Part shown: in pieces, positions 17,893-32,534 of the stretch
Layout of the letters: the number at the start of each line of letters is the position of its first letter
Numbering within the stretch: position 1 is the stretch's first letter
Source: a virus
Direction: 5' to 3' (one strand)
IMG/VR virus record: IMGVR_UViG_3300037247_000684
Coordinates: 1-45,767 of that record
DNA length: 45,767 bases
Translations under genes and position numbers: made by a program
The notes under the pieces: model-generated
What the model saw: only the letters and a program-made list of their open reading frames with translations
Database searches by the model: none
Told to the model about the DNA's origin: nothing

Positions 17893-17921
17893 TTGACTTT
17901 TGTGCTCAAATCACCGATAAT
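17893..17921 (+). promoter_or_regulatory. Rightward promoter 1
   Basis: TTGACT (17893-17898), 17-nt spacer, GATAAT (17916-17921). The block from the -35 through CGATAATACTTTCA is shared with rightward promoter 2, including spacer bases (TTTnTGC and AAAT), so a common regulator may bind. Confidence 0.7.
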
Positions 17922-17932
17922 ACTTTCATGAT

Positions 17933-18021
17933 GATTACTTGGCTAAACACTCAAAACCGCATTTATTCGCCCGCTGGCACTTACAATTCTTTTAGCCGAG
18001 TAATCGTTTGTGTCGGCGGGC
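17933..18021 (+). ncRNA. Interlocked-helix leader RNA, copy 1
   Basis: Helix A: 17933-17947 with 17991-18005, 15 bp, one G-U. Helix B: 17969-17980 with 18010-18021, 12 bp, two G-U. The order A-B-A'-B' makes a pseudoknot. Spacers: A-B 21 nt, B-A' 10 nt, A'-B' 4 nt. Helix B ends 19 nt before ATG 18041 and is followed by a short U-rich run and AAGGAG. Both copies 2 and 3 share the plan with different sequence. Confidence 0.75.
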
Positions 18022-18040
18022 TTTATTTAAGGAGCCGATA

Positions 18041-18328
18041 ATGTATGACACAACACACGAAAATGGCGTTTTAGTTTGTAGCATCCACCGAACACCTATC
18101 AGCAAAAGTCACGGGCGTTTTTTCTGCCTTAAATGCCAACACAGTGAGGACTATCACAAGCAACACAACACCGAAGAGCATCAAGCGAAAATTGGGAATT
18201 GCATAGCTCAATTAGTTTTGCTCAAGAAACACAAGAACCGCTACCATACAGCCTGGGGCACAAAAACAGACTTAGGGCTTTACCTTAGCGTTAAACGCAT
18301 CTTTGACGAAGAGCGAATAAACATCTAA
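18041..18328 (+). CDS. Hypothetical zinc-binding-like protein, 95 aa
   Basis: Start ATG 18041 with AAGGAG; the longer frame from 18008 runs through the leader helix and is unlikely. CSIHRTPISK and FFCLKCQHSED give a C-H / CxxC set, followed by a His-rich helix. First gene behind leader copy 1. Function unknown. Confidence 0.65.
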   Translation: MYDTTHENGVLVCSIHRTPISKSHGRFFCLKCQHSEDYHKQHNTEEHQAKIGNCIAQLVLLKKHKNRYHTAWGTKTDLGLYLSVKRIFDEERINI

Positions 18329-18373
18329 AATACGCAGGGCCGGGCTGTACGCAGCCTGTGCTTTATGTATTTT
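18327..18373 (+). ncRNA. Intergenic hairpin element E, copy 1
   Basis: AAAATAC pairs with GTATTTT outside, and GGGCTG with CAGCCT inside, around a TACG tip. It begins in the stop codon of the 95-aa gene. Copy 2 is at 21744-21789 with the same tip (GGGCTnTACGnAGC) and changed but still paired flanks. It precedes the ribosome site of the next gene. Confidence 0.6.
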
Positions 18374-18403: not shown

Positions 18404-18649
18404 ATGAAAACCTACAATGGCCACAGAAGCTGGAACGCCTGGAATGTATCGTTATGGATTAGCAATACAGAAGCTACCTATAATTATGCTTTGCATTGCC
18501 TAAAAGAAACGACTTTCCACGGCATACAATCAGCAGGACGGGCAACCACTGAATTTATGCGAGCGTATCCTAATGCACGAACCCCAGACGGAGCAATTTA
18601 CAACCACTTATCAGTTAAGCTCTGTCTGCAGGGCTTTATCAAAGATTAG
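18404..18649 (+). CDS. DUF7249-like conserved protein, 81 aa
   Basis: The start YNGHRSWNAWNVSLWISN fits the YNGxxxxxTWNVxLWI signature of a small family common in phages and plasmids. Role unknown. AAGGAG precedes ATG 18404. Last gene of rightward operon 1, before a strong terminator. Confidence 0.65.
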   Translation: MKTYNGHRSWNAWNVSLWISNTEATYNYALHCLKETTFHGIQSAGRATTEFMRAYPNARTPDGAIYNHLSVKLCLQGFIKD

Positions 18650-20704: not shown

Positions 20705-20733
20705 TTGATGTTTATGCCAAAATAGTCGATAAT
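20705..20733 (+). promoter_or_regulatory. Rightward promoter 2
   Basis: TTGATG (20705-20710), 17-nt spacer, GATAAT (20728-20733), then the shared ACTTTCA. A closer match to TTGACA at 20691 is too far from this -10. Confidence 0.65.
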
Positions 20734-20741
20734 ACTTTCAG

Positions 20742-20832
20742 TATGAAAGCTGACCAAAACAATCAAACAAGCATTAAAAAGCCTCGGCACTCCACGTCTC
20801 TTGGTCAGAGTTCATATTGTGTCGGGGCTTTT
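20742..20832 (+). ncRNA. Interlocked-helix leader RNA, copy 2
   Basis: Helix A: 20742-20757 with 20801-20816: 6 bp, a tandem A-G/G-A internal loop, then 8 bp. Helix B: 20777-20790 with 20819-20832, 14 bp, two G-U. Spacers: A-B 19, B-A' 10, A'-B' 2 nt. Against copy 1 at least four helix-B pairs change on both sides while the GGCAC/GTGTC end, including its G-U, is kept. Helix B ends 20 nt before ATG 20853. Confidence 0.75.
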
Positions 20833-20852
20833 ATTTTTGGAAGGATGGAATT

Positions 20853-21284
20853 ATGAGTGCTTTTATTGTAGATGACAAAACGATTAACAGAGTTGTAGCT
20901 TGGATGCATGATGCAGTCAAAAGACAAACAGATTTTTCCTGGAGTGTCCGAACTTTGCAAAAATTAGGATACAAACTCGACACTGAATTAGGTTGTAAAA
21001 GGCTTGCCGAAGAAATGTTCACCTTGAATTGCGACAGTATTGAGCAGAGATACGGAGAAGGGCAAGCGAAAGAATTTAGGCCGCTTGATTTTCAATTTAG
21101 CCTTGTGCGCCCGCCAGGTCATTATCAAGCACTGAGTTCGATGCGATGCCTCTTGTATCAATGTTGCGAAGGTGATGTGCCAGAGCAAAGCGATTTATAT
21201 AACGCTCTTGACAGAGTTTCGCTCGAATTGAGCTACCAGCTTATAAGTCGCTCAAAGGCTTACGAGGCAGTCACCTGGGATTAA
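20853..21284 (+). CDS. Conserved hypothetical protein, 143 aa
   Basis: Start ATG 20853 (GGAAGG upstream) gives MSAFIVDDKTINRVVAWMHD, a beginning I associate with a conserved mobile-element family of unknown role. Later segments: ELGCKRLAEEMFTLNCDSIE, and a helical C-terminus rich in Ser/Tyr. First gene behind leader copy 2. Confidence 0.65.
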   Translation: MSAFIVDDKTINRVVAWMHDAVKRQTDFSWSVRTLQKLGYKLDTELGCKRLAEEMFTLNCDSIEQRYGEGQAKEFRPLDFQFSLVRPPGHYQALSSMRCLLYQCCEGDVPEQSDLYNALDRVSLELSYQLISRSKAYEAVTWD

Positions 21285-23979: not shown

Positions 23980-24408
23980 TTATGCTACTTTCTTATGCTC
24001 TTTTCTGTGACATTTTATGCAAGTTGGCAAAACATCGAGCCAGTGTTCTTTGGCGTAACCTTTATAGTGGTGATACTCTTGGGCTGAATTGGGACAATAA
24101 TTACATCGTAAAAATTTGGCGTTTGGTATCAAGCCGCTTTGTATGGCTCCGTTTACTGCACTTCCTGCTTTTCTTGCTTTAGAATGCCGAATGCATATCT
24201 TCTTTCGGACAACTTTGCCTTTTTCACTTTTTTCATATTTACTACTCGCCCTACGATGCACTTCCCTGCCCTGCTCAGTTTGTATATAATTTTTACAACG
24301 TATCCCAAAACACTTTTTGCACTCGCTTGTACGACCATCTTTAGTTCTTTTCTCTTTGTAAAATTCAGAAAGCTGTTTGTCTTGTTTGCACTTTGAACAG
24401 GTTTTCAT
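23980..24408 (-). CDS. HNH homing endonuclease-like, 142 aa
   Basis: N-terminal zinc motif TCSKCKQDKQLSEFY..SECKKC, a basic middle, and a C-terminal CNYCPNSAQEYHHYKGY..LPTCIKCHRKEH, which is an HNH/zinc nuclease core. It is a paralogue of the plus-strand gene at 41074. It lies 52 nt downstream of the interrupted tRNA-like element, an arrangement typical of mobile endonucleases near introns. Confidence 0.75.
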   Translation of the reverse strand: MKTCSKCKQDKQLSEFYKEKRTKDGRTSECKKCFGIRCKNYIQTEQGREVHRRASSKYEKSEKGKVVRKKICIRHSKARKAGSAVNGAIQSGLIPNAKFLRCNYCPNSAQEYHHYKGYAKEHWLDVLPTCIKCHRKEHKKVA

Positions 24409-24460
24409 TGTATGGTTCCAACTCTTTTGCTGCTTGGATTGTTGTAGAAAATGAAATTAG

Positions 24461-24726
24461 GTGTTGCGAGGCAGGGATTTGCACCCTGCATGGTTAATCT
24501 TAGCCCGACTTCCTGCTCTTTGACTTCATACCTTTTTGTTAAAAGGCTTCGGTCATCCGTTGTGAAACGGCGTAGTTTATTCGTAGGCACGTACTGCTGA
24601 CCAACTCTGTCTGTCAGTCGCCCTTGTAGTAGGAAACTATGAGCGCCAAGCCACAACACTTGGCCGCCTACCTCCAGAAGCAAAACCTTACGAGCACCTA
24701 AGCGTCTACCTATTCCGCCACCCGCA
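24461..24726 (-). tRNA. tRNA-Leu-like halves split by about 190-nt insert
   Basis: The 5' end (TGCGGGT, then GGCGGAATAGGTAGACGC) is a Leu-type acceptor and D arm. The 3' end (CAGGG-TGCAAAT-CCCTG, then CCTCGCA) is a T arm and acceptor; TGCGGG pairs with CTCGCA. CTTAG (24698-24702) and CTAAG (24499-24503) could be the anticodon stem, with the insert in the anticodon loop. The insert has several hairpins (CCTTTT/AAAAGG, CCGTT/AACGG, CTGAC/GTCAG, GCCAAG/CTTGGC) and CGACT/AGTCG. A small group I intron is possible; no anticodon can be assigned, there is no encoded CCA, and a decayed tRNA is the alternative. Confidence 0.4.
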
Positions 24727-24773
24727 TAAAAAAAGCCCTGGGTTGAATGCCGGTCAAGGGATTTCCCAGAGCT
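24727..24773 (-). terminator. Intrinsic terminator just upstream of tRNA-like element
   Basis: AGCTCTGGG (24765-24773) pairs with CCCAGGGCT (24734-24742), then a T-run reaching the first base of the tRNA-like sequence. On the plus strand one pair becomes C-A, so it favours leftward transcripts. Confidence 0.7.
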
Positions 24774-24862
24774 TCTTTTAACACCTAATTGTATTTGACC
24801 GACATTCATCTTACTTTCTACGATAATCCATTTATTCTTGTTCGTCCAGAATAAAATAAAAT

Positions 24863-32013: not shown

Positions 32014-32106
32014 TTAATCTTTTCTTGTCCATAGATATTTAGAACAACAAAGTATCATTAATAATGATAAAACAGTTGCCGTTCCAACTAAAAAGTCAAC
32101 CATCAT
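32014..32106 (-). CDS. Small single-span membrane peptide, 30 aa
   Basis: ATG 32106 follows TGAGGTAAG and starts MMVDFLVGTATVLSLLMILC, one membrane helix, then a basic end (YLWTRKD). First gene of the early operon, directly behind leader copy 3. Could act on the host membrane early in infection; inference only. Confidence 0.5.
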   Translation of the reverse strand: MMVDFLVGTATVLSLLMILCCSKYLWTRKD

Positions 32107-32124
32107 TTTCTTACCTCAAAATAA

Positions 32125-32234
32125 ACCGACAAGGGGCGCGGAGCCAGTTACGATGTGGAAAGAACGCGCCCGCTTGACGGTAATGTGCCGTTGATTTGAT
32201 TTGTTGGGTGGTTTCCATTTTCGTAACTGACTCC
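32125..32234 (-). ncRNA. Interlocked-helix leader RNA, copy 3 (diverged)
   Basis: Helix A: 32221-32234 with 32140-32153 (14 bp, one G-U). Helix B: 32165-32181 with 32125-32140 (15 bp with one bulge and one T-T). One base is shared at the A'/B' joint. B-A' spacer is 11 nt; A-B spacer is 39 nt with a small hairpin. Helix B ends 18 nt before ATG 32106 and is followed by TTATTTTGAGG, as in copies 1 and 2. Confidence 0.65.
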
Positions 32235-32263
32235 ACTTTAACTTTTCAAAACGTACAAGCTAA

Positions 32264-32283
32264 GGCCGTTACCATTAACGGCC
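32264..32283 (-). promoter_or_regulatory. Hairpin in early leader
   Basis: GGCCGTTA pairs perfectly with TAACGGCC around four bases, within the long early leader. No U-tract follows. Confidence 0.5.
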
Positions 32284-32429
32284 TATGTTTGTCAGTTTTG
32301 GCTTTCCCGGTGCCGAGGTCAATTTAGAGATTTAACTTTAGGTTCGATTGAAGATTTTTCTTTCGCATTTTGGGTTCCACCTTTCTTTTTGAATTGACGT
32401 TTCTATCTTTATCCTTTATCATAAGCCAT

Positions 32430-32458
32430 ATTATCTCATATTTTGTCGGCTATGTCAA
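32430..32458 (-). promoter_or_regulatory. Early leftward promoter
   Basis: TTGACA (32453-32458), 17-nt spacer, GATAAT (32430-32435). It is the best consensus in the window and reads into a leader of about 315 nt before ATG 32106. The gap 32107-32534 holds only this promoter and leader; no terminator for the late operon was found in it. Confidence 0.8.
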
Positions 32459-32534
32459 TACAAATCTTTAGATAATCTGCGTTTGGACAATTAGTTTATT
32501 CGGACACGGCGTTATTGACTCAGAAAAGGTTGTT

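Follow-up and report, generated by a model that had tools for sequence, protein, structure and literature searches.

Upstream of the first gene of a rightward operon in the IMG/VR virus record IMGVR_UViG_3300037247_000684 (45,767 nucleotides, the whole of which was analysed and is referred to here as the window) lies a short leader in which two long helices interlock. The locus raises the question of whether such leaders form a family of related RNAs and, if they do, what they might do for the genes that follow them.

Leader structures in the window

The window carries four such leaders, two per strand, each consisting of two long helices with arms in the order A-B-A'-B', placed before a Shine-Dalgarno (SD) sequence and an ATG. 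Their parts are as follows, with paired arms separated by a slash.

17893..17921, plus strand: promoter of copy 1, TTGACT, 17 nt, GATAAT; the ATG (17928) lies six bases further on
17928..18041, plus strand: leader open reading frame (ORF) of copy 1, 37 codons, MMITWLNTQNRIYSPAGTYNSFSRVIVCVGGLYLRSR; its stop codon TAA overlaps the next ATG
17930-17947/17991-18008, plus strand: helix A of copy 1, 18 pairs including one G-U; the 5' arm contains the leader start codon
17969-17980/18010-18021, plus strand: helix B of copy 1, 12 pairs, with TTTATTT after B'
18041..18328, plus strand: 95-aa gene that opens operon 1, without family match; a DUF7249 gene is next, at 18404
20705..20733, plus strand: promoter of copy 2, TTGATG, 17 nt, GATAAT
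20739..20832, plus strand: copy 2, helix A 20739-20758/20800-20818, helix B 20777-20790/20819-20832
20743..20856, plus strand: leader ORF of copy 2, 37 codons; its stop overlaps the next ATG (ATGA)
20853..21284, plus strand: 143-aa gene, the first downstream of copy 2, without family match
32125..32236, minus strand: copy 3, helix A 32236-32221/32153-32138, helix B 32181-32170/32136-32125; homologue with compensating changes at L114:2912-3021
32111..32236, minus strand: leader ORF of copy 3, 41 codons from GTG or 35 from an inner ATG; its stop lies 4 nt before the next ATG
32014..32106, minus strand: small ORF after copy 3, 30 aa, followed by a leftward operon (31954-31658 and on)
24727..24809, minus strand: copy 4, helix A 24808-24795/24757-24744, helix B 24780-24765/24742-24727; the U-run lies inside B'
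24405..24809, minus strand: leader ORF of copy 4, 134 codons, traversing the structure and then a tRNA-like stretch and ending in an ATGA overlap with the next gene at 24408

In copy 1, B and A' are separated by 10 nt and A' and B' by 1 nt. The 16 pairs of helix A in copy 2 are interrupted by a 2x2 internal loop, and helix B of this copy has 14 pairs. The sequence CGATAATACTTTCA, common to copies 1 and 2 and directly upstream of both, is the -10 element of a sigma70-like promoter.

An earlier note on this DNA had described three copies. All three are real, and the two interlocked helices of copies 1 and 2 lie before a first gene as claimed, but the number is four, a stronger copy at 24809-24727 on the minus strand having been missed. 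The distances given from helix B to the start codon (19, 20 and 18 nt for copies 1, 2 and 3) were measured again at the same values, and a hand alignment of helix B between copies 1 and 2 confirmed the four two-sided changes. The structure placed at 32125-32234 stands as well; it had been given no strand and works on the minus strand, where an ATG at 32106 lies 18 nt past B', while no ORF of at least 60 aa was found downstream of it on the plus strand.

Several other features of the window were recorded. The stretch that follows copy 4 (24405-24727, minus) has a tRNA-like start (GGTGGCGGAATAGGTAGACGC) and, after about 260 nt, a T-arm-like end (GCAGGGTGCAAATCCCTGC), all within the 134-codon ORF; a tRNA, tmRNA or intron at this position was considered, and neither ARAGORN nor Rfam confirmed one. 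Upstream of copy 3 (minus; 32422-32468 and 32263-32284) are a consensus promoter, TTGACA-17-GATAAT, a 32-codon ORF and a terminator-like hairpin AGGCCGTTA/TAACGGCCT, which with its downstream flank is also present upstream of the homologous L114 leader. Another hairpin, GGGCTGTACGCAGCC, is common to two different phages, occurring at 18342-18356 of the window before an SD sequence and gene and in L083 upstream of a leader. A gene for a PD-(D/E)XK endonuclease-like protein (PF11645; 18701-19129, minus) lies between the operon of copy 1 and that of copy 2.

Search for relatives and curation of members

Since the proteins encoded behind the leaders gave no usable relatives (none for the protein after copy 1 and only remote ones for that after copy 2), the terminase was used as the query, and about 80 environmental, podovirus-like viral contigs were retrieved. 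The portal and terminase sequences suggest podovirus-like phages. A scan of 84,980 bacterial and archaeal genomes with two peptide patterns gave no match; the clade is probably lytic, and the absence of prophages fits such a life.

A total of 22 records, complete or nearly so, were scanned, giving 23 leaders after hand curation, with L092, L071 and L090 added later. The family thus comprises about 25 leaders on about 20 contigs, the weakest being L085 and L016. It includes close homologues (copy 1 with L013, copy 2 with L137 and L148, copy 3 with L114b, and L017 with L018) together with many members that have no alignable sequence.

The scanner for interlocked helices has a high false-positive rate in GC-rich sequence (55 matches in the clade, 16 in shuffles of the clade and 39 in control contigs), and because of this the members rest on hand curation and on tests that were not used for their selection; new members would need the ORF and partner tests described below. 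Within the window, when both helices were required and the ORF criterion was left aside, four structures reached -42 kcal/mol or better against a mean of 0.025 in dinucleotide shuffles (n = 80, none of which reached four). That the leaders are chance inverted repeats or ordinary intergenic terminators is scarcely credible. Helix B with its U-run does by itself resemble a terminator, but the shuffles, the swapped-partner and ORF tests and the recurrence in relatives all speak against this reading and have already refuted it for the family taken together, although individual weak members (L085, L016) may yet be coincidental.

A DNA pattern combining the shared promoter with TGTCGG gave only chance matches in viral contigs, BLASTN of the leaders against named phages and tblastn of one leader peptide gave no match, and patterns of the B' tail matched only within the same clade. 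The promoter plus ATG pattern in viral contigs (at least 120 stretches) yielded no convincing new member among the matches listed, and no convincing leader was found in three named phages whose terminase or portal is remotely similar, of which one was scanned in part. The family has so far been seen in one phage clade, and pattern scans of this kind leave room for its occurrence elsewhere.

Two side observations concern the relatives. In L133, at about 18110-18158, the leader L133b directly follows a sequence resembling the 3' half of a tRNA (CGCCGGTTCAACTCCGGCCCAGGGC), so that its 5' end might come from tRNA processing; ARAGORN called no tRNA there. L016 (4150-4500) and L018 (80-1570) contain long GC-rich arrays of near-repeats (GCAAAGC and CGTTCGTGGTCG types) in otherwise ordinary phage contigs.

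Conservation of pairing

A covariance model was set aside because it cannot hold a pseudoknot and because sequence conservation is low; a swapped-partner test and a count of pair types were used in its place. Among 22 members, helix A had a mean energy of -22.5 kcal/mol with its own A' and -10.5 kcal/mol with the A' of other members, the corresponding values for helix B being -21.6 and -8.9 kcal/mol. The own partner ranked first for most members, the doubtful L085 reaching only rank 10 of 22. Every position of both helices is occupied by four to six pair types, non-standard pairs are rare, and compensating changes can be followed directly from copy 3 (CAGTTACGA/TCGTAACTG) to L114b (CAGCCGAA/TTCGGCTG). 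The arms and loops of the members have no conserved motif in common of the sort that an aptamer or a protein-binding site requires.

A search of Rfam 15, which includes the C4 antisense RNA, riboswitches and phage leaders, gave no gathering-level match in the window, and copies 1-3, searched at E values as high as 5, produced nothing beyond chance matches below threshold. The open-access full-text literature yielded no account of leaders of this kind, subscription papers lying outside its coverage. The proposal of a new leader-RNA family whose letters differ while the pairing stays is therefore upheld: each arm prefers its own partner in related phages, and the family is well supported.

Thermodynamic folds of copies 1-4 pick either one helix or the other, because the folding program cannot draw both. 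A' and B' adjoin (0-4 nt apart) except in L017 and L018 (15 nt). Linker L1 is rich in A and C (G 6%), linker L2 in pyrimidines (G 8%). In a rough estimate allowing 2.8 Å per base pair and 6.5 Å per linker base, L2 could span helix A in 19 of 24 members, and L1 could reach across the two helices together in 21 of them; the estimate fails in five members, mostly those in which helix A is extended by weak pairs. The linker lengths fit helices that exist simultaneously, which falls short of proof. A classical H-type pseudoknot has a short L2 (from the 5' arm of the second stem to the 3' arm of the first), whereas the leaders mostly have 7-18 nt there.

An open reading frame through the structure

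A feature that the earlier note overlooked is an ORF that threads the whole structure. Read from a start codon at the 5' end of helix A, all 23 leaders tested remain open as far as the end of B', with no stop in 693 codons; these members had been chosen by structure, the open frame having already been noticed in the first seven. The other two frames contain 40 stops in 685 codons and 27 in 675 (67 in 1,360 together) and are open in only 4 and 7 of the 23, while in dinucleotide shuffles the frame stays open in a mean of 10.4 and a maximum of 18 of 23. The start codon is ATG in 20 of the 23 and GTG or TTG in copy 3, L085 and L016, and the stop is mostly no more than 4 nt from the next start codon. 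The open frame through the structure is well supported, and its conservation argues for translation, short of proof.

The leader peptides share no motif or codon run and have no Pfam match. Between the near homologues copy 3 and L114b, and likewise copy 1 and L013, indels shift the frame and later restore it, so that selection seems to maintain the open frame rather than the peptide sequence.

Promoters, transcript ends and U-runs

A sigma70-like promoter scoring at least 9 lies just upstream of 12 of 26 leaders (3.9% in shuffles), and for about half of the family no clear promoter is seen immediately upstream. The ATG stands six bases past the -10 box in copy 1, L013 and L133, and where the promoter is clear the ATG would be the predicted 5' end of a leaderless transcript. 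Copy 3 and L135 have apparently longer 5' ends, L135 with a possible SD sequence before its leader ORF. Leaderless initiation employs 70S ribosomes at the 5' end or close to it (PMC9031893).

The arrangement TTGACA-17-GATAAT-6-ATG also occurs in unrelated viral contigs (L231-L310), where an ORF of at least 56 codons follows in 55 of 80 cases among the matches listed; this spacing of promoter and ATG thus marks leaderless genes and offers a simple handle on them in phages.

A U-run (at least 5 U in the 9 nt after B') is present in 20 of 26 leaders and in 8% of downstream control stretches. Three others, copy 4, L017 and L018, have it inside B', and the GC-rich members L071 and L090 are without one.

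Comparison with known regulatory RNAs

Ribosome-mediated attenuators of the trp/his type resemble the leaders in having, ahead of the structural gene, a short leader ORF that overlaps helices in the RNA and a terminator-like hairpin. In the leaders the ORF runs over the helices (open in 23 of 23) and a hairpin with a U-run precedes the gene (20 of 26, and 3 inside B'), as judged from sequence and with a long loop. Unlike the trp/his type, whose helices compete and overlap, the leaders have A/A' and B/B' on separate, interlocked bases; they share no regulatory codon run, and their ORF, predicted to begin at the 5' end of the mRNA or close to it, extends to the gene start. By analogy, the leaders would work most like ribosome-mediated attenuation.

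Leaderless small upstream ORFs, cysteine-rich, have been proposed as attenuators in mycobacteria (PMC4633059). These open an operon with a leaderless short ORF and deliver ribosomes to the next gene, as is proposed for the phage leaders, but they are cysteine-rich and the available text of that report describes no A-B-A'-B' structure. The pseudoknots in the 5'UTRs of timP and tisB govern ribosome entry (PMC11228461), as is proposed for the leaders; they belong to toxin mRNAs with an antitoxin sRNA, and a leader ORF threading the knot is not described in the available text of that source.

The T4 gene 32 mRNA likewise carries a leader pseudoknot upstream of a gene, about 28 nt long, with UUAAA repeats and bound by gp32 (PMC535899), whereas the leaders span 80-110 nt, have helices of 8-20 bp, an ORF and a U-run, and precede varied genes. 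Neither UUAAA/UAAA repeats nor a cognate gp32 gene downstream was found in the leaders examined, where the downstream genes are unrelated, and the likeness to this operator drawn in the earlier note does not extend to membership.

Proposed mechanism and alternatives

The earlier note had left a translational switch, an attenuator, an exonuclease block and a terminator open as options. Of these, an attenuator fits the data best, since the structure is contained in full within a conserved ORF that is predicted to begin at the 5' end of the transcript or close to it and that abuts the next gene. We judge it about as likely as not that the leaders of this probably lytic, podovirus-like phage clade act as ribosome-gated attenuators. 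Transcription would start at, or a few nt from, the AUG that opens a leader ORF of 30-40 codons; helix A would hold this AUG, B would lie in mid-ORF and A' and B' at its end, with the ORF stop placed where the first real gene begins. A ribosome entering the 5' AUG while the polymerase is still making the leader would occupy A, leave A' without a partner and overrun B, and would carry transcription and, via termination-reinitiation, translation into the gene. Should no ribosome enter, A would pair with A', close the AUG and, since linker L2 and helix A are of roughly equal length, set B beside the emerging B'; B and B' would then pair and the U-run would end transcription. The sequences show the two helices in every member, the open ORF with its stop close to the following start, the promoter position in some members and the U-run in most; from them we infer ORF translation, termination at B/B', coexistence of the helices as a pseudoknot and ribosome entry as the switch.

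The main weakness of the gated terminator is that the loop of helix B, at 25-45 nt, is poor for an ordinary intrinsic terminator; the answer proposed is that A/A' may bring B to B'. In its specific form, helix A would both hide the leaderless AUG and present B to B', making a poor long-loop hairpin an efficient terminator, and the transcript would continue only after a ribosome had entered at its 5' end. The leader, in which no conserved codon run points to a signal, would sense the availability of ribosomes for leaderless initiation and not an amino acid. We hold this form tentatively, at somewhat less than an even chance.

The main rival of the gated attenuator is purely translational control, in which coupling would tie the first gene to the leader ORF, the pseudoknot sets the use of the leaderless AUG or of the gene's SD sequence, and B is no terminator. 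The overlap or abutment of the ORF stop with the next start agrees with it, as does the position of the gene start, mostly 15-22 nt after B', which is about where the upstream edge of a ribosome bound at a start codon lies. Pseudoknots that govern ribosome entry are known, for example those of timP and tisB (PMC11228461). The U-run directly after B', a mere spacer under translational control, is nevertheless strongly enriched where none would be needed, and we consider this explanation unlikely, if still a serious one. Protection of the mRNA 5' end, with the first bases locked in helix A and stacked on B so as to slow 5'-end-dependent decay, and with the frame serving only for coupling, would suit a helix A that begins at the predicted transcript 5' end and A' and B' arms that usually abut (0-4 nt) and so permit a continuous stack; it leaves unexplained both the U-run and a frame open through all arms in 23 of 23, and is improbable.

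A site for a phage protein or ligand, as in a riboswitch or an autogenous operator of the T4 gene 32 kind, could account for a plan common to several operons of one phage and for the biased composition of the loops. No conserved motif is found in arms or loops, however, and the downstream genes differ, most being small and uncharacterised, which makes such a site very improbable. The C4 antisense RNA of P1 and P7 has an arrangement unlike that of the leaders. It is, as they are, a phage leader-region RNA, and its covariance model (Rfam) gave no match. An immunity element of the C4/P4 CI type, acting as a small or antisense RNA and merely preceding genes, would agree with the compact RNA of about 95-110 nt that the coordinates predict as a terminated product; with no Rfam match including C4, no prophage relatives, and an SD sequence, gene and open frame always present, we regard it as more improbable still. 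Among all these readings we retain that of the ribosome-gated attenuator.

Biological significance

The family probably represents a genetic switch not described before, one that lets the arrival of a ribosome decide whether an operon is read. If this is true, the leaders would constitute an undescribed RNA family that ties the transcription of viral operons to immediate translation with no ligand, protein or codon-specific stall. They would also provide a compact system for the study of leaderless initiation, transcription-translation coupling and co-transcriptional pseudoknot folding, for which about 25 natural variants, identical in plan and different in their letters, are available.
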